From: Blepharisma japonicum
Lineage: Eukaryota; Ciliophora; Heterotrichea; Heterotrichida; Blepharismidae
Assembly (NCBI GenBank): GCA_949751835.1
Contig: CATKHK010000025.1
Span: 62,001 to 126,000 of the forward strand
Direction: 5' to 3'
DNA: 64,000 nucleotides
The notes beneath the pieces were generated by a model. That model was not told the origin of the DNA. It was given only the letters and a program-made list of their open reading frames with translations, and did no database searches. Positions 9,872 through 31,884 of this stretch are shown one piece after another (position 1 is the first letter of the stretch; each line of letters opens with the position of its first letter). The position numbers and the translations under genes were made by a program.

Positions 9872-10558
9872 TTAAGCAGTCCAAATCTTTTCTTTGTGCT
9901 TAATCATTCTTCTGAAATCCCTCTGGGCTCTCCAATGGAAATCTTCCTTCTCTCTTCTTGCATCAACTTCAAACATCCTTGTCAAATATCTAACAAACAG
10001 CTTGATCCATTTAATAATCTCACATTCAGGTCCTTGGGTGAATCTTTCTTCAGCCTGTCTCCATTCTGGCCTAGCAGTCAAAGCTACCACTGCAGCTAAT
10101 ATCTCTTTTGGGACAGCCCTAGCGTTGACATTCCATAACTTGGGAACTGCATTTTCTTTCTTCAAAAGCTCTTCAATGTCTTCTCTTGATGGATAGTCCT
10201 TGGTTAGCATTAAGAATTCAAAGAAAACTGAAAGGAGAAACAAAGTATCGGCGTCGTCGTAGCTCAAGGTTCTAAAATCGATATCGCTAACAGCAACACC
10301 AGCAAAGTGTAGGTCTTTGGTGAGGTTTGGACAAGGGTCGACCTGAATTTCGGCTTCAATTTCTTTCAGTTTGGCGTCGTGAATGGCTGTACGTTCATCG
10401 GCCATGGTGAGGATCACTTCTTTTAGGTTCTGCCAGTTTCTGCGAAGCTGACTATTGATACCTCCGAGGTTCATGAAGGTGGTTGGGCGGCGGATGAATG
10501 GCAAAACGTGGTAGTGGAGAATATCTGCAGGAATATTGCTGAGGGTCGTCGCTGACAT
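9872..10558 (-). CDS. F-box-like N-terminal protein, paralogue A
   Basis: 228-residue single-exon protein. The N terminus (NIPADILHYHVLPFIRR) resembles the first helices of an F-box (L/I-P-x-D/E-I/L...I/L-xFI), and the rest is helical with no known motif. A clear paralogue lies at 17922-18602: both share the IPxDIxxYHxxPFIR start, GGIN, LTKDLHFA, LLSVFF.(Y/F)LML and a C terminus ending IKHK.KIW. Codon use here is visibly richer in G and C than in its paralogue or neighbours, which may mean higher expression. The F-box call is weak; an SCF adaptor role is only a possibility. Confidence 0.8.
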   Translation of the reverse strand: MSATTLSNIPADILHYHVLPFIRRPTTFMNLGGINSQLRRNWQNLKEVILTMADERTAIHDAKLKEIEAEIQVDPCPNLTKDLHFAGVAVSDIDFRTLSYDDADTLFLLSVFFEFLMLTKDYPSREDIEELLKKENAVPKLWNVNARAVPKEILAAVVALTARPEWRQAEERFTQGPECEIIKWIKLFVRYLTRMFEVDARREKEDFHWRAQRDFRRMIKHKEKIWTA

Positions 10559-24259: not shown

Positions 24260-24820
24260 ATGTCAAGCACAAGCTATATCATTTCTAAGCATATAATAGA
24301 TCAAATTCCAAGTACCCCTTGTAGTGCTCTATCAAATAGTTATTTGCAGGAGACGGAGTATAATTCAGATATTGATAATTCAATCAGAAATGAAATCGAA
24401 GATAAATTTTCGAAATCTAAAGTAAACCAAACTTATGTCTTCCCAAGACTAAAGCCACCAATTACATTGCAGGGAAAATTTACAAGGGCTACTTCTAAGC
24501 ACCATTCATTAATATCCGAACCTGAAAAAAATAATTCGAGGCTTGAACTTTCTTCTAAAAAGAAGTTGCTCATATACAAAACATATAGTGATCAAAATAA
24601 AACCCACTTAAGAATGAAATCACTAAGTTTTATAAAAGCGGATTTAATATCAAATCCTAGGCACAAGAGGATTGAAAGTGATATAACTTCTTATCCAAGC
24701 AAATTTTTAAAATCACCTTATCTTCAATCGCCTAGAAAACTCCCTAAATTAAAGTCCTTAATAAAGAAAAATTTAACTCATGTGAGAATCAAGGGAAATT
24801 TGCCAACAAAAGAAGCTTAA
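24260..24820 (+). CDS. Hypothetical basic Ser-rich protein
   Basis: 186 residues, single exon, 24 bp after the stop of the preceding gene on the same strand. Polar, basic and rich in Ser and Lys, with no domain, membrane segment or clear coiled coil (MSSTSYIISKHIIDQIP; KSPYLQSPRKLPKLKSL). Codon use matches the neighbours. It is the last ordinary gene before the repeat-rich block. Confidence 0.65.
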   Translation: MSSTSYIISKHIIDQIPSTPCSALSNSYLQETEYNSDIDNSIRNEIEDKFSKSKVNQTYVFPRLKPPITLQGKFTRATSKHHSLISEPEKNNSRLELSSKKKLLIYKTYSDQNKTHLRMKSLSFIKADLISNPRHKRIESDITSYPSKFLKSPYLQSPRKLPKLKSLIKKNLTHVRIKGNLPTKEA

Positions 24821-25227
24821 ATTTGCTAATTATTTTTTTAAAGGATTAAAAATAATTATTCGAGTAATCATACTGGTTGATGAAATGGGCCTTCTATATA
24901 ACTTTTAATAATAGATAAATTAGTACAGAAAAGAATCAAATCGCTTTTTTTCCCTCCAAATTAGCCAACATTAAGCCTGACAATAAAATAACTAACAACT
25001 CTAACAATTCTTTTTTTTAAAAATTTATTCATTATTATTTTTCGCAAATTGAATTTTATACTAGGTAAAATAACCTCAAAGTGATTTCCAATAAATTCAT
25101 TGAAAGAATGAAATCAATTTTTTCTTGCTAGAAATATTGAATCAATCAACCTTGTGATCAAAATTGTGCCAAGAACTTACTTATTAAAACAGATTTTATA
25201 AAAAGTATATAATTAATGATCTATAAT
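24821..25227. other. Intergenic, no gene seen
   Basis: About 400 bp of AT-rich sequence between the last gene and the left palindrome arm. No open frame or repeat recognised. Confidence 0.45.
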
Positions 25228-25496
25228 GAAATCATCATTAACACGCATCCATTCTTGTTGATTTTCAAGGATTTACTTCTCCTTACCTGCTTTGAGCTGC
25301 AGTTGCAAGCTCACTCTTGCAAATTTCATCTGTCCTAGCATTTTGCAGCTATTAAATTCTGAAGCTCCATCAAATACATTAATTTACTCCATTTTTATAT
25401 GTATTCATCTCCGACAACAATTTTTGCTGATTTTCAAGCATTTGATTCTGCTTATTCTCTCTGAGTTGTCATTTCAAGTGCACTCTTGCAAATTTC
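25228..25496 (+). repeat. Left arm of a 270-bp inverted repeat
   Basis: Matches the reverse complement of 26062-26331 over about 270 bp with only scattered differences, roughly 90% by eye. It consists of two diverged direct copies of a unit of about 130 bp (both contain the string cactcttgcaaatttcatct). Read on its minus strand, the arm still shows coding character (GQMKFARV, ILENQQ), so the unit seems to derive from a coiled-coil coding exon. A third partial copy of the unit continues past 25496 to about 25550. Confidence 0.85.
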
Positions 25497-25561
25497 ATCT
25501 GTCCATGGGTTTTGCTGTTAATTTCTGAGTCTTCATTGAAATAATTTAAGTGCTTAGAAAT

Positions 25562-26060
25562 ACTAAAATCGCGTAACTCTCATTGCTTCTCTTGGATTTG
25601 GGTGCTCAAAAGCCCTAGCTGCTGACATTACATCTTTTCATCAGCCACTATATCAATATTCTCCACACCCCTCCATCGACTTCAATATTAAGCCCTGGGA
25701 AATCTCTCCTAAGGCTTCTAATTTTTCCCATCATATCTACCATAAATTTCTGCCCTGAAAATGCTGGTTTTATTCATGATTAATACCATATCTTTCTATT
25801 ATACAAATTATTCACTTATACCAACTTTGTAAATAATGATAAACTTGCATTCGTCCCATGACTAATATTATATGAGTGATTTTGGATGAGCCAAAAATAT
25901 CCAAAAGAATTTTAAGGACAAATGCTATTTCTAAGTCATGAAAGAGCCTTTTGCGAACAATTTGAAAATGTTTTGAGTGTTCATTATAAAAAACTCGCTG
26001 GAAGAGTCTGCTATACTCCATCAAGTGATCAGAAAAAATACTTATGATAGCATTATATAT
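25562..26060 (-). pseudogene. Ribulose-phosphate 3-epimerase-like remnant in palindrome loop
   Basis: Minus-strand pieces read as ribulose-phosphate 3-epimerase: DMVLIM, then [10 protein letters not shown] with [20 protein letters not shown], then [10 protein letters not shown], then SAARAFEHPNPREAM. These correspond to the family's blocks MVLVM(T/S)VEPGFGGQKF, the IEVDGG strand and the final GS.(I/V)F loop, and upstream text (LEIAFVLK) fits the GLALKP strand. The pieces lie in different frames with stops between them, and GFGGQ has become AFSGQ. It therefore cannot make the enzyme. The start side runs into the right palindrome arm. Confidence 0.7.
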
Positions 26061-26061
26061 A

Positions 26062-26331
26062 AAATTTGCAAGAGTGCACTTGAAATGACAACTCAGAGAG
26101 AATAAGCAGAATCAAATGCTTGAAAATCAGCCAAAATTGTTGTCGGAGATGAATACTTGTAAAAATGGAGTAAATTAATGTATTTGATGGAGCTTCAGAA
26201 TTTAACAGCTGCAAAATGCTAGGACAGATGAAATTTGCAAGAGTGCGCTTGCAAATGCAGCTCAAAGCAGGCAAGGAGAAGCAAATCCTTGAAAATCAGC
26301 AAGAGTGGATACGTTGCTAATGATGATTTCT
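26062..26331 (-). repeat. Right arm of the 270-bp inverted repeat
   Basis: Reverse complement of 25228-25496 with a few per cent substitutions. Arms plus loop span 25228-26331, and the loop of about 565 bp holds the epimerase-like remnant. No target-site duplication was clear at the outer ends. Confidence 0.85.
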
Positions 26332-26401
26332 AGTGATGCTTCATTAAAATGGAGTCATAAAATAATATTCTTATATAGACTATATAGAAAAAAGATAGTA
26401 G

Positions 26402-26482
26402 TCTGAAAGCATAATTGAAAAGCATTCAACGCCACCAATATATGATGAATTTTCCTGTGAGATTTGGGAGAATGGAGATTAT
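26402..26482 (+). pseudogene. PHD-finger remnant, left piece
   Basis: Plus-strand frame ending YDEFSCEIWENGDY, the N-terminal part of a PHD finger. The second zinc-binding Cys of the usual CxxC is replaced by Trp (TGG), and TAG codons lie directly upstream. The matching C-terminal part lies across the LINE at 29384-29623. It was probably already decaying before, or has decayed since, the insertion. Confidence 0.65.
26475..26482 (+). repeat. LINE target-site duplication, left copy
   Basis: GAGATTAT, repeated at 29376-29383 at the other end of the LINE. Confidence 0.75.
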
Positions 26483-29375
26483 TTTTTATTTATAACGGTT
26501 ATTATTTTAACATTAGATATAATTGTCTTGATATTATATGTTGTGTAGATATTGTATGTTGATAAAAGTTATAAATAAGTGAATAAATCACCAGAATTAA
26601 TGCATTTCCTTTCTCCCAATTGGTCTCCCATTTGAGTCTTCACAAGCTTTTTATCTGTAATCGAAGAATTGGAGTCTAAATCAGGGGAATCTAATGGAAA
26701 CCTTCGTTTAATCGTCTCATCCGCCTCACATCTATCAGAAATAGCTTTCATAACAAGTTTAATCCGAAGAATTGCATCATCACGGTTTAAACCACCTCTG
26801 CATCCAGCATGAGATTGATACTCTGGTTGTTTACAAACCGGACAATAAGCGAAGGTATCGTGAGGAAGAGGGTTCACTATCAAGGATAAGGCTGTACCTC
26901 TAATCACTTGGCAATAGTGGACATAGGAGCAGTGGGGGTTAGCATAGAGTTTCCTATCAAAACCTATTTTAGGGATCGATTCCGGAAGTCGGAATTTATC
27001 TAAAGATTCAACCATTCCATGTTCCAATAGCTTTCTAAGCATTCAATGGCTCTTTTCCATGAGAATCTGCTTTATAGGTTTGACACCAAGAATTTTATAA
27101 ACAAGTTCTGCAGAAGCGTTCATTGGAAAGTTGTAGATGGTCATAAGATAACTACAATAGGCTTCTTCTCAAGTACCATATATACCTGCATCTTCTTCAA
27201 ATCAAGGAGTATCCGAGAGACAGTATTGAGGGTCAACCATCACGCCATAGAGACTACCTCTCACGACCGAGTTGAGAAGCATTTTGTTCTTGTACTGAGA
27301 TCTGAGATAGTTGCTAGGGAGTTTAAAGAATTCCTGGAGCTTAAGCATCTTAGCTCTAAATTTCTGGAGACGGGCTTCGATACTTGTGCTAAATATCGGG
27401 TAGCCAAACTTCGAGAAACCAATCGTAAGTCCCAAATATTCATATTCCCGAACCTGAGGCATATCCAGGATGTCACCTTCTGACTTATTCCCAGCTTTCT
27501 TAGGATGAATGTAGGATGATTTGTCTTGCTTGTAGTTAATTGTTAAGTGGTATTCCTGAGCATATCATTCCATGAGTTCGTAAATTGTTTTCGCGTCATC
27601 TTCCGTATCGACAACAATCAGAATATCGTCAGCGTAAAGGGTAATCCGTCCCCCATTCGCTTCAACTAATTCTTGTAAGTCCGCAATATAAAGGTTCCAA
27701 AGTAGAGGGGAGAGTGGTGAACCCTGTTTTACTCCATTAGTAGTTCTAACGAAATCATTGGTACCGTAGAGCGCAACGTGATGATGTTGGATGGAAAGCA
27801 TGATGTCACGGATAGTTGTGTCAGAGAAACCCATTCAAATAATTTTCTTGATTAAGGTGTCATGATGCACTGTGTCAAATGCATTTGCAAGATCATAAAA
27901 CATCAATATGCATTCTTGCCCCTTTTGAGAAAGATCTTGGGTAAACTCAGCTAGTTCTAGGGTTTTTGCAACAATTTCCGCAGACACACCAGAGCGGAAG
28001 CCAAATTGCCAAGAGCCCATTTTCTTTTCAGCATCTTCAGCTATAAGTCTAGAGCGAATGCAATCATCAAAAATCTTATCCATTGCATCCATCAAGTGGA
28101 TCTTTTGATAACACTTTGGGTCTGCAATGTCACCTTTTTTAAAGATAGGGATCACATAGGCGTAGGATATCCATTTACAATAAGATGCACGAGTATTAAT
28201 AACTTGTGTCACCTCGCGTATACATGGTAAAAAGTGCGCTTCTGATAAACCATCAGGACCCGGAGCATGTATTCTCCGACTTAGATTTAAGATAGCATTT
28301 TCAACTTCTTTCTGAGTGTAAGGCTTAGATTTAGTCTGGTCCAAAAAGTGTTGTATAGCTTTTTGTCTTACTGAGAAGTCTTGTCAAAGAAGTTCGTCTG
28401 CACCTAGAGTTGTCTTGAATTCTTCTGCTCAATTTTCATTGGCAATGACATTATAGCATCTTCTATGATTCTTCTGAAAGAGTCTGAACCCAACTTTGGA
28501 TCTATAAGACTTGCTCTTTATATCCCCAAACCTAACTTTGTGGTAAATCTGATAGAGCATAGACGAAAGATAATTCTTCGTTACCACACGATCCCAATAT
28601 TCCAGCTCTAGAACTCCGTCATCAATTTCCAAAAGTCTTTTTCTCAGCTTGTCACGGTTTTGCAGGACCCAGGACTGTCAAACAGGTTTGAGTATCCTTC
28701 TTTTAGCAAAATTTCTATCTGGAACAAAGTAGGTAATTAAAGCCTGGTGATCTGAAAGTTCTCATCCATTTCCTATCTCGAGTTTAAAACGGTTGCTAAT
28801 TTCTCTGGAGATTGTATAGTCCAGCACAAATTCCTTCCCGTCAGCAGTCCGAAAGGTGGAGGATTCATTCAGAATGAAAAGGCCAAGTCTTGAGAGAGTA
28901 CCTAGTAGTGCTAAATCGTGTTTGGAAGGGGAGTCTCGAAGCAATAGGTGCATGTTAAGATCACCCATTATTAAATCGGGAGTCTCTCGTTCAATTGCTA
29001 ACGACAAATCCAAGCCTTGAGAATTAGGTGTGTTGTAAGCAAGCATAAGCCGGCAGGAGTTGACCTTCACTAAGAAGTATCTCACGTAGTTCTGTTCGAA
29101 GTAGAGCACCTGAGCATTAATGTCTTGGCGTAGATATAGCGCTACCCTCCCTTGGTCAAAAAGAATGTAATTCATGTTTGTAGGGAGCACTACATCTTCT
29201 GAGTCATTGACACGGGCTTCAGGGAAAAACATAATATCCCAGTCTCTTTGGATAAAGTTGAACTTGCTAGGTGTCAAACCTCTTGGATTCCAGCTTAGAA
29301 TAGAAAATTTCAATGTTGTGTCAGGAGTGTCAAAATTTTCGGATTCCATATTCAAAAGAAAAATGTAATATGATA
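26483..29375 (-). mobile_element. Non-LTR retrotransposon (LINE), apparently complete ORF
   Basis: The element lies on the minus strand. Its 5' end (29375) has a leader of only about 26 nt before the ATG. Its 3' end (26483) has an untranslated tail of about 85 nt ending in an A-rich run (AATAAAAAA in element orientation). It is flanked by the 8-nt duplication GAGATTAT. This is the expected signature of target-primed reverse transcription. One 926-codon ORF encodes endonuclease plus reverse transcriptase. No separate ORF1 was seen, so the family may be single-ORF or this copy may be 5' shortened. Base composition is less AT-rich than the flanks. Confidence 0.9.
26569..29349 (-). CDS. LINE ORF: APE-type endonuclease and reverse transcriptase
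   Basis: 926 residues from ATG 29349 to TAA, uninterrupted when TGA is Trp (at least nine TGA codons, for example in GNGWELSDH and IIWMGFSD). Endonuclease (residues about 10-220): ILSWNPRG start, catalytic Glu in FFPEARV, GDLNMHL and LSDHQAL. Reverse transcriptase (about 330-640): PGPDGLSEAHF, QFGFRSG, catalytic Asp in FYDLANAFDTVHHD, GVKQGSPLSPLLWNLY and YADDILIV. C-terminal zinc knuckle CPVCKQPEYQSHAGC. All catalytic residues of both domains are visible, so the protein may be active. Its use of TGA for Trp shows that the element has lived in this genetic code. The clade cannot be set by eye. Confidence 0.92.
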
Positions 29376-29383
29376 GAGATTAT
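29376..29383 (+). repeat. LINE target-site duplication, right copy
   Basis: GAGATTAT, identical to 26475-26482. Confidence 0.75.
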
Positions 29384-29623
29384 GAAAATGATGATTTGAT
29401 CGTAATTTGTACCGGTTGCAATACAGGAGTACATATGAAATGCTATGGAATTCTTGTAGTTCCAGATACTGACTGATACTGCATTGCTTGCCAAAAACAG
29501 CCAGAAAGGCGAAATGAAATTCGATTTGCGTTGTGTCCAAATAAAGGAGGGGTAATAAAGCTGACTGTTCTCTCCAAGTTTAGCGACAGAGGAGTGAAGA
29601 TTTTTCTTATGAATAAAAGTTAG
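29376..29623 (+). pseudogene. PHD-finger remnant, right piece (BRPF/JADE-like)
   Basis: Plus-strand frame YENDDLIVICTGCNTGVHM, then KCYGILVVPDTDWYCIACQ, then RFALCPNKGGVIK, ending at TAG 29621-29623. This is the core of a PHD finger followed by the start of the extended PHD of the BRPF/JADE/AF10 class (known pattern: DLIVFCDGCN..VHQ.CYG..., then LCPNKGGA.K). After CPNKGG the resemblance is lost, so the domain is truncated. One TGA is read as Trp (DTDWYC), the usual PHD tryptophan. Such proteins bind histone H3 tails in other eukaryotes. Confidence 0.75.
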
Positions 29624-29689
29624 AGCTGCTGAAAATCGTTGAAGCAAAGCTTGCAATTAAATCTATTACTTTCGAGTAGGAACTAATGC

Positions 29690-30026
29690 TTCTTTGGGAG
29701 CTTAGGGGATTAGGAGGTAGAAACTATAGAGAAATACTCAAAGCTCTGTATGTAAATTTTGGTAATATGCGAATTGAAGAGTATGTCATTGATCGAATAC
29801 AAGTTTATAATTATTTGCAAAGCTGGTATAAGTGAATAATTTGTATAATAGTTTGATATGGTATTAATCATGACGGGAGAACCTGAAAAAAGTTAGAAGC
29901 CTTAGGAGAGATTTCACAGAGTTTAATAATGATCAAAAATATTTAAATGAGAAGAATGCTAGAACTTATTTAGATTTCGAATACGAAGAAAAGTTAGATA
30001 AAAGCAAAATAGTATCTAAAATTTAA
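29690..30026 (+). pseudogene. Second epimerase-like remnant sharing sequence with the palindrome loop
   Basis: From about 29765 the DNA matches the reverse complement of the palindrome loop (about 25735-25850): both carry caaagYtggtataagtgaata and atatggtattaatcatga, the latter encoding the epimerase MVLIM block. The GQKF part is missing here: text jumps from MVLIMTGEP to KVRSLRRDF. An open stretch follows (FNNDQKYLNEKNART) to TAA at 30024-30026. It is another copy of the same decayed, epimerase-derived repeat, with an internal deletion. Confidence 0.6.
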
Positions 30027-31263
30027 TTAACAAATTTCCTAATTATGTTATGGAATCTTTGAAAGTTGGAGGTGATAAGAATATCTCCCTAGGATTATTT
30101 ATGGCATGTAATCTATAATAGAGCTTTTATATCATTAGGTGAAGAATTGCCAGCACAAAGTGCATAAGCGAAGATGAAGCTGCTGATCAAATAGATGCTT
30201 ACCAAAAATGTGCAAAAATTCATACGAACATACTGACATAATATAAAATAAACCAAATGAAATATCAATTATGCCTCAATAAGAATGCCTCTAATAATAA
30301 AGCAGCAGTATATTGCTTATATTAAGGCAATCCTCAGCTAAGATGTGAGATATATAAAATCCTAAAGATACTCAAATTAAATCATATCATTTCTTGGAAC
30401 TATTGTTGCAAAAAAATTTTACCTTTAGACTGCATGCATAAAATTCTTTTGTCGAAAAAAATAAAGCCTCTATTTTTTAAAGACCAACTGCTTTTACATT
30501 AATTTATATACAGAAATATTCTAACCTTGATAAAAATTAGAAAGTACAGAGTTGACATTTTAATATAAGAGTCATTAGCTCATTATATTGAGATTAGAAT
30601 TCAATTATTATCAAAATCATCCTTAATTAAATACTTTTGGTTTGAATTTAGAACAAATAATATATATTTAAGCTATTTTTAGGGCTCTCCTACGCTCTTT
30701 TTATGAAATCCTAAATGATCTCAAAGAAAGTTTTTCAGTTAATTTTTAAATTGCATAAATCTGTCATTTTCAAAGAGCGCAATTACTTAAAATCATTTGA
30801 ATATGAGTTTTTAAAATTTTAATTATAAATGCTAATTATAGTAAACTATATTTCGTGGGGTAAAGTTAATGATTGAATGTTTAAATTATTCTAAGATAAA
30901 ATATCAATTTTTCAGGTGCTAAATTCTATATAGATAAAAACTATTTTCTAGCAGGGCATAAAGAGAAATTTATTTGTTTAAGAGTTTAAAGAAAAGATAT
31001 ACCCAAGCAATATCCAAAGATTCAGTTTATCTACTAATTAAAACAGCTTAAAGCATTTATTATAACTTATAAAATAATAGTAATTATAAAGTCTTCAGAT
31101 AAACACCTTTCTTACATATTAATTTCTAAAATTATTTTGGTTTTCTATTTTTCAAAAGCTTCCAAAATCTTATTAAGCCTATTTTTATAAAATAGCTATT
31201 TCCATATTCTAAAATGCTTGTCCAGTAATGCATCCACGTTCAATTTATTATAATAAGTAATTA
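30027..31263. other. Gene-poor AT-rich stretch
   Basis: About 1.2 kb with no supported gene. Only short open pieces are seen (for example near 30130-30240), and stops occur in all frames. It may hold further decayed repeat material, but nothing could be identified. Confidence 0.5.
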
Positions 31264-31884
31264 ATGTCAACCAAGGTTGAAGGCGATATTAATGTTATTA
31301 CCAGCAACCAGTACATCCCAAATATGTACTCGTCCTTCATAGGTATGCCCAATATTATATGAATACCTTACTATCAGCATCCTGTCACTGGCGAAATCAA
31401 ACCAGTTTTTCCTGTCGAGTCTCTCCCTAGTGACGAAAAGGATATAGAAGAGCCACAAAAATCCAACCGCGGAGCACGAAGTCTGCAGTGGACTGATGAT
31501 GAAGACGGCATTCTTTATAGCTCAATGGCTGAGAACGGAATAAAATCTTGGGCCCAAATAGCGAAACTGATAAATAAGCAAGTCCATGCTGGAGAAGAAG
31601 TCCGCCATGGAAAACATTGCCGAGAAAGGTGGTTTAATCACTTAAATCCTGATATTAAAAGTAAAATTTATGTAGGAACTGAGTGAACCCATGAAGAAGA
31701 TTTGGAACTAGTTAAGCTCTATATAAAACACGGTAATCATTGGAGCTTAATAGCTAAAAATTTACAAGGGAGAACTGAAAATTTTGTTAAAAACAGGTTT
31801 AATGGTCTTTGCAGAAGAGCGAAAAAAGCTAATAAAGGGCTTTTTGAGTTTTTTAATGTCTCTCCTTGTGACGGAAATTTGTAG
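31264..31884 (+). CDS. R2R3-type Myb DNA-binding protein
   Basis: 206 residues, ATG 31264 to TAG, with two TGA codons read as Trp. Residues 76-130 form one Myb repeat (SLQWTDDEDGIL, SWAQIAKL, HCRERWFNHLNP) and residues 139-185 a second (TEWTHEEDLELVKLY, HWSLIAKNL, GRTENFVKNRFN), with the regular Trp spacing of helix-turn-helix repeats. The first Trp of the second repeat is one of the TGA codons, which confirms the recoding. The N-terminal 70 residues are Pro/Ile-rich and unknown. Expected to be a nuclear transcription factor. Upstream is the gene-poor block; downstream a zinc-finger gene converges. Confidence 0.93.

Follow-up and report, generated by a model that had tools for sequence, protein, structure and literature searches.

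A LINE unit encoding only an endonuclease-reverse transcriptase in Blepharisma japonicum, and a candidate ORF1-only partner with the same 3′ end

The window analyzed here is a stretch of 64,000 nucleotides of Blepharisma japonicum (contig C25:62001-126000), taken from an assembly of 45,185,585 bases in 224 contigs. It carries a LINE insertion that separates two pieces of a PHD-gene pseudogene, and a second, related unit lies on contig C79 (Table 1). Judged from its sequence, the window element is a non-LTR retrotransposon (LINE) unit, probably of APE type, a complete copy that encodes an endonuclease-reverse transcriptase (EN-RT) protein only. Its ends showed no direct repeat of at least 25 nt, so it is without long terminal repeats, and its 3′ tail, GTTATAAATAAAAA, is A-rich, as an earlier note on this DNA had reported, rather than poly(A).

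Table 1. Features of the LINE insertion, its target and the C79 unit (window positions unless a contig is named)
Feature	Position	Strand	Remarks
LINE insertion, 2893 bp	26483..29375	-	ends set by the paralogous empty site on C53; 5′ end 29375, 3′ end 26483
5′ untranslated stretch, 26 nt	29350..29375	-	
ORF2-type EN-RT protein, 926 aa	26569..29349	-	TGA=Trp code, stop TAA
Putative APE-type endonuclease region	28665..29349	-	PF14529 22.4 bits, sub-threshold; motif strings by eye
Reverse transcriptase domain	27421..28134	-	PF00078 104.3 bits; two resident LINEs agree in the key columns
3′ untranslated stretch, 86 nt, ending GTTATAAATAAAAA	26483..26568	-	with the last ORF codons, the part common to the C79 unit
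Target-site duplication, element's 5′ side, GAGATTAT on +	29376..29383	.	C53 flank matches overlap exactly here
Target-site duplication, element's 3′ side, GAGATTAT on +	26475..26482	.	C53 flank matches
Left piece of PHD-gene pseudogene (insertion target)	26367..26482	+	87% to C53:183613-183731
Right piece of PHD-gene pseudogene	29376..29656	+	97% to C53:183724-183919, 94% to C53:184380-184464; 460-bp internal deletion relative to C53
ORF1-only unit, 2.07 kb	C79:130863-132930 (L051 6364-8431)		11-nt leader, 654-codon ORF, LINE-like 3′ end

The EN-RT frame runs from its first ATG at 29349 to a TAA at 26569-26571 and is open only when TGA is read as Trp, which bears out the single 926-codon ORF described in the earlier note. 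The note's figure of at least nine TGA Trp codons also proved correct: nine of the 16 Trp codons are TGA and seven are TGG, a rate about equal to that of the host (53 of 108 in 20 chosen host ORFs). The reverse transcriptase scored far above the cut-off of 29.6 bits for Pfam RVT_1 (PF00078), and a profile search of the genome gave 111.6 bits for the same domain at G000:C25:89421-90134. The strings FYDLANAFD, GVKQGSPLSP and LYADDILI were read in this domain, where D486 and Y572-A573-D574-D575 are invariant across the window LINE and two resident LINEs. In the endonuclease region, LSWNPRGL, FFPEAR, YNTPN, IMGDLNMH, LDYT and LSDHQAL were picked out by eye; we take both sets of strings to be the EN and RT motifs. 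Exo_endo_phos_2 (PF14529) stayed below its cut-off of 27.4 bits (E 1.2e-4), and the region had no match in PDB by sequence at E up to 10. The claim that both sets of catalytic motifs are visible thus stands on a profile match for RT and on strings read by eye for EN, and the element is intact in the sense that its frame is open and the expected motifs are present. A CX2CX7HX2C motif was found near the C-terminus. A structure predicted from the single sequence had a mean pLDDT of 34.8 and was unusable, and no relatives of the element were confirmed in viral contigs.

Comparison of the flanks with C53 revealed the site before insertion. Each flank was searched against the genome on its own; the left and right flank matches on C53 overlap by exactly 8 bp, which is the proposed duplication. 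Joined around a single 8-bp copy, the flanks align to C53 ungapped across the junction, and in the main block 287 of 307 columns are identical. Because this empty site carries the 8-bp overlap, the exact 8-nt target-site duplication of the earlier note, GAGATTAT on both sides, is more than a chance match, and chance duplication was rejected. A domesticated host gene was likewise rejected, in view of the clean duplication and the dead target copy. The region C53:183613-184464 (L071) is an intact-looking PHD/extended-PHD gene (zf-HC5HC2H_2 68.5 bits, PHD 34 bits). Relative to it, the window copy has two altered finger codons, taken as Cys from the alignment, and lacks 460 bp. The window copy is a dead, duplicated fragment of this PHD-finger gene, its paralogue on C53. 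Since the flanks meet at C53 on the 8 bp, the LINE was inserted into this duplicated and now dead piece. The right flank has further matches of 76-78% identity on C33, C34 and C95.

The pseudogene also offers a relative date. Its divergence from C53 is about 6.5% in the aligned block. In neutral simulations of 400 runs each, the EN-RT frame was still open in 13.5% of the runs at 2% substitutions per site and in one run at 6.5%. As the frame so rarely survives 6.5% neutral decay, the insertion is probably younger than most of the approximately 6.5% divergence of the PHD copy. A LINE whose pre-insertion site is known from a paralogous PHD gene bears on how retrotransposons persist in the somatic genomes of ciliates. 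The duplications of both the LINE and the C79 unit contain TA, a dinucleotide that bounds Blepharisma IESs and is frequent in AT-rich sequence, and excision of TA-bound IESs is discussed in PMC9942856; excision of either unit as such an IES is possible in principle.

The assembly itself is probably largely somatic, as inferred from its size and telomeres. The triple repeat of CCCTAACA occurs at 77 forward and 91 reverse positions (overlapping positions counted); among the places listed whose location at a contig start or end is known, with C5, C17 and C38 set aside, all are no more than about 0.5 kb from a contig end. A telomere repeat of the CCCTAACA type and the use of TGA for Trp have been reported for Blepharisma stoltei (PMC9942806). 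The earlier note considered an intact LINE notable in such a genome, a view that published work had already overtaken: according to PMC9942806 and PMC9942856, the B. stoltei somatic genome contains LINE sequences with uniform or partial coverage and negligible expression, among them APE-type LINEs that are partly truncated and retained in somatic DNA. In Loxodes, about 2,700 RVT_1 copies are described for both nuclear genomes (PMC11441545).

The search for other copies proposed in the earlier note was run, and no second copy of the window LINE was found in the 45.2-Mb assembly by DNA and protein searches in which the best candidates were scored. Among those candidates, the sole other DNA match was 76 bp of the LINE 3′ end at C79:132855-132930 (81%). 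At the protein level (E up to 0.001), 18 other places matched the EN-RT protein with 27-37% identity, and the three matches longer than 300 aa were 29-30% identical to it. With one DNA match and protein relatives at no more than 37%, the window LINE stands outside any large dead family in the assembly; the many diverged copies envisaged in the note as marking a dead member were not seen. A search with the 3′ part beside a resident LINE returned the query itself and four partial matches. No copy with ORF1 and ORF2 on one element was found in the 45.2-Mb assembly.

The single DNA match led into the second unit, the ORF1-only insertion on C79. It is flanked by repeats of 13 bp with one mismatch, TAGGGTCACTCTC and TAGGGTCTCTCTC, and none of 2000 Markov controls and none of 268 window chunks gave a match as long with at most one mismatch. 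Its 654-aa ORF uses eight TGA and eight TGG codons for Trp. A paralogous empty site was not found for this unit, and a disrupted gene at the site was rejected, the joined 86-codon frame across it being too short to count. Residues within 264-308 of the C79 protein show a coiled-coil heptad pattern, which by a simple purpose-made score was reached in none of 200 whole-protein shuffles and one of 1000 segment shuffles. Neither Pfam nor NCBIfam gave the protein a match above cut-off, PDB gave none, and its C-terminal part has, by eye only, an RRM-like order of strands and helices. We regard it as a putative ORF1p, which it resembles through the heptad pattern alone.

The two units are tied together most directly by their 3′ ends. 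An alignment of 119 columns pairs the 3′ end of C79 with the final codons and the 3′ untranslated part of the LINE, and the homology was also recovered in the reverse search from C79. Its local alignment score is 95; the 3000 shuffles reached no more than 58, and 190 AT-rich chunks of the window no more than 39. The homologous segment begins inside both ORFs and, on our reading of the alignment, in the same frame. Given that the same stretch of about 120 nt ends both units, one reverse transcriptase probably copies both RNAs. The 2.9-kb element described in the earlier note may not be the whole system, as C79 holds an ORF1-like partner that ends in the same 3′ sequence. In the aligned part the 3′ ends are 19% different, so neither unit is a recent derivative of the other, and since both ORFs have stayed open, it is probable that the two lineages have been copied apart from each other for some time. 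Similarity between the 5′ ends was not significant (129 of 190 host-host comparisons scored as well), and RNA folds of both 3′ ends were no better than those of shuffles. A heptapeptide, PDLDSNS, is common to the two proteins outside the 3′ homology (C79 65-71; LINE 891-897 in 928-residue numbering; blastp E 1.2).

Homology that begins in frame inside both ORFs is also what an internal deletion could leave, and both units might descend from an unseen two-ORF parent that is germline-limited or lost. The window element would then be a 5′-truncated copy starting just before ORF2, and the C79 unit would resemble HAL1 or TRE5-A.2 in having arisen by internal deletion; PMC5753468 and PMC5391098 describe both 5′ deletions and derivatives with ORF1 only. 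Germline copies would be missing from an assembly that is probably largely somatic. Against such a parent stand the failure to find any two-ORF copy in 45.2 Mb, the 19% difference of the 3′ ends and the two starts, which fall independently within 26 and 11 nt of an ATG. We consider this parent quite possible, though we doubt it.

Codon usage provided a second link between the units. Both ORFs have a G+C of 0.40 (third position 0.375 and 0.381), whereas host ORFs have 0.34 and the two resident LINEs 0.26-0.28. The RSCU values of the two ORFs correlate at 0.80 with each other, at 0.63 and 0.57 with bulk host ORFs, at 0.67 and 0.55 with one resident LINE, at 0.78 (ORF1) and 0.70 with four tubulin pieces, and at most at 0.74 and 0.73 with any of 17 host sequences. 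The host set comprised 20 long ORFs hand-chosen from 44, three of which formed the bulk; the tubulin pieces were four of 33 matches, and host correlations used the 17 of 24 host sequences that were at least 1000 nt long. As host-host correlations average 0.73 with a maximum of 0.91, the value of 0.80 alone is not extraordinary. What we read as the telling point is rather the joint departure of both ORFs from the host in the same codons, among them GGT, CCA and TCC; the RSCU of GGT is 1.94 and 1.96 in the two ORFs compared with 0.43 in bulk. A resident LINE on C176 keeps host codon usage (0.93 with bulk). The codon usage of the pair could reflect high expression: the tubulins come partway to the pair. 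Codon usage has also been studied in choanoflagellate transposons (PMC6875170). Elsewhere in the window, a 228-aa ORF at 9872-10558 (-) with a G+C of 0.44 has a codon usage far from that of other host ORFs (r 0.46 to the pooled host set).

These data bear on where the pair came from. The earlier note had argued from the TGA codons that the element evolved inside this genetic code and did not arrive recently from a standard-code host. TGA use does speak against the latter, but not against a recent arrival from another ciliate that reads TGA as Trp, and the argument is not supported as stated; codon usage and G+C are unlike those of the host ORFs compared and of two resident LINEs. Horizontal arrival of both units from such a ciliate in recent times is compatible with any of the readings of how the units work. 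The single copy, the raised G+C and the unusual codon usage with TGA kept as Trp are in its favor, while expression-related codon choice offers an alternative account, and we think such an arrival somewhat unlikely.

The C79 unit might instead be a chimeric retrogene, formed when the enzyme, while reverse-transcribing, jumped from the 3′ end of the LINE onto an mRNA of an unrelated host gene. Chimeras of mRNA and LINE with duplications are documented for mammalian L1 in PMC13174262, and the C79 unit is single-copy. However, no source gene was found in the genome: searches with the C79 ORF at E up to 1 returned itself and one match with E 0.18 and 25% identity. The ORF has no second copy and is hence no retrocopy of any host gene present in the assembly. 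In addition, the codon usage of C79 sides with the LINE, and the 3′ ends are 81% identical instead of near-identical. This origin seems very improbable.

Taken jointly, the evidence makes it probable that the window element is an EN-RT-only LINE unit, an mRNA-like copy placed by target-primed insertion into a dead PHD copy, and part of a two-unit system with C79. In outline, an mRNA-like RNA would have served as template for the LINE, which would have entered its site by target-primed reverse transcription: the EN-RT protein would nick the DNA, and copying of either RNA would start at the nick from its A-rich 3′ end. The common 3′ end of about 120 nt would be the obvious recognition element, read in trans. 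The unit starts, 26 nt (LINE) and 11 nt (C79) before the ATG, resemble copies of complete mRNAs with short leaders, and short untranslated regions are reported for B. stoltei genes (PMC9942806). The C79 protein would take the role of ORF1p.

LINEs without ORF1 exist (RTE type), and the window LINE could also be self-sufficient, as the earlier note implied, with the C79 unit parasitizing its 3′ end or machinery. The open EN-RT ORF and the precise insertion are in keeping with this; yet a mere parasite would have no obvious reason to keep open a LINE-like ORF of 654 codons, unless its protein helps in cis, and we find a self-sufficient LINE rather improbable. The best argument that the C79 protein is needed is that its frame stayed open, as far as one copy of each unit can tell. 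In the two-unit reading, the two mobile units may work as a pair. Its strictest form, a bipartite LINE whose ORF1 and ORF2 sit on separate insertions with a common 3′ end, each needing the product of the other as in a segmented genome, strikes us as unlikely. Several points weigh against two cooperating units. With one copy of each, two loci carry the whole case for a pair; the C79 protein is not identified as an ORF1p by any family or sequence match; neither 3′ end has a significant RNA fold; no empty site was found for C79 and the 5′ ends are without significant similarity; and LINE gene expression was negligible in B. stoltei under the conditions described in PMC9942806 and PMC9942856.

The usual view of LINEs is that each acts chiefly on its own RNA. 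A LINE that draws its two proteins from separate mobile units would, if real, depend routinely on trans action via the common 3′ end, and would make the role of ORF1p directly testable.

Known systems resemble the pair in part. RTE-type LINEs are about 3 kb long, with one EN-RT ORF and a short A-rich 3′ end, and the window LINE is like them in all three, with a C-terminal CX2CX7HX2C motif and an ORF1-like partner besides; the likeness is one of size and layout, not of an RT tree. As in the LINE and LINE/RTE-X elements (APE-type) described for B. stoltei in PMC9942806 and PMC9942856, a putative EN and RVT_1 are found together in a TGA=Trp genome, here probably a largely somatic one. Unlike the families described there, which have numerous copies, some more than 97% identical, the LINE here is single-copy with at most 37% identity to other places, and an ORF1-only unit has the same 3′ end. 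The C79 unit shares the 3′ end of the EN-RT element and has its own duplication (one mismatch in 13), like a HAL1 or TRE5-A.2 type of partner. In Dictyostelium TRE5-A.1 and TRE5-A.2, as described in PMC5391098, the ORF2 protein from a related LINE acts in trans to mobilize the ORF1-only unit; but TRE5-A.1 has both ORFs on one element, whereas neither unit found here does. Mammalian HAL1 (half-L1) is likewise an ORF1-only element, derived from a LINE (PMC5753468). L1, by that account, carries both ORFs, a kind of parent that the searches here did not find, and the C79 protein is likened by architecture, not by homology to L1 ORF1p. Published work thus already covers LINEs in the somatic genome of Blepharisma, and also ORF1-only partners beside two-ORF elements. 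The new observation is an ORF2-only and ORF1-only pair with no two-ORF copy found, and a limited search of the open-access literature found no report of a LINE split into such units.

Scans of 24800-31300 with Rfam and for tRNAs gave no match, and 24820-31264 contains no ORF of at least 150 aa except on the LINE strand and one ORF inside the LINE. RT-bearing loci crowd at contig ends (C176, C76, C132, C69, C150 and others): of 29 rows, 21 are no more than 10 kb from an end, a zone that makes up at most 9.9% of the assembly. The 29 rows represent 30 of 41 RVT_1 places, with two C102 places merged and 11 places left out. On C69, an RT piece lies about 1 kb or less from terminal telomere repeats, and on C11 a weak, sub-threshold RT fragment adjoins telomere repeats. 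The crowding may mean that these loci are subtelomeric, or that the assembly broke in repeats. The window LINE itself is not near a contig end. Beside it lies a 256-bp inverted repeat, a foldback element (25243-25498 and 26059-26314, 95% complementary, 560 bp apart), with relatives of 80-94% identity on C117, C212, C102 and C34. Parts of the foldback middle (25682-25862) recur as inverted copies (89%) at 29785-29932, beyond both the LINE and the pseudogene.
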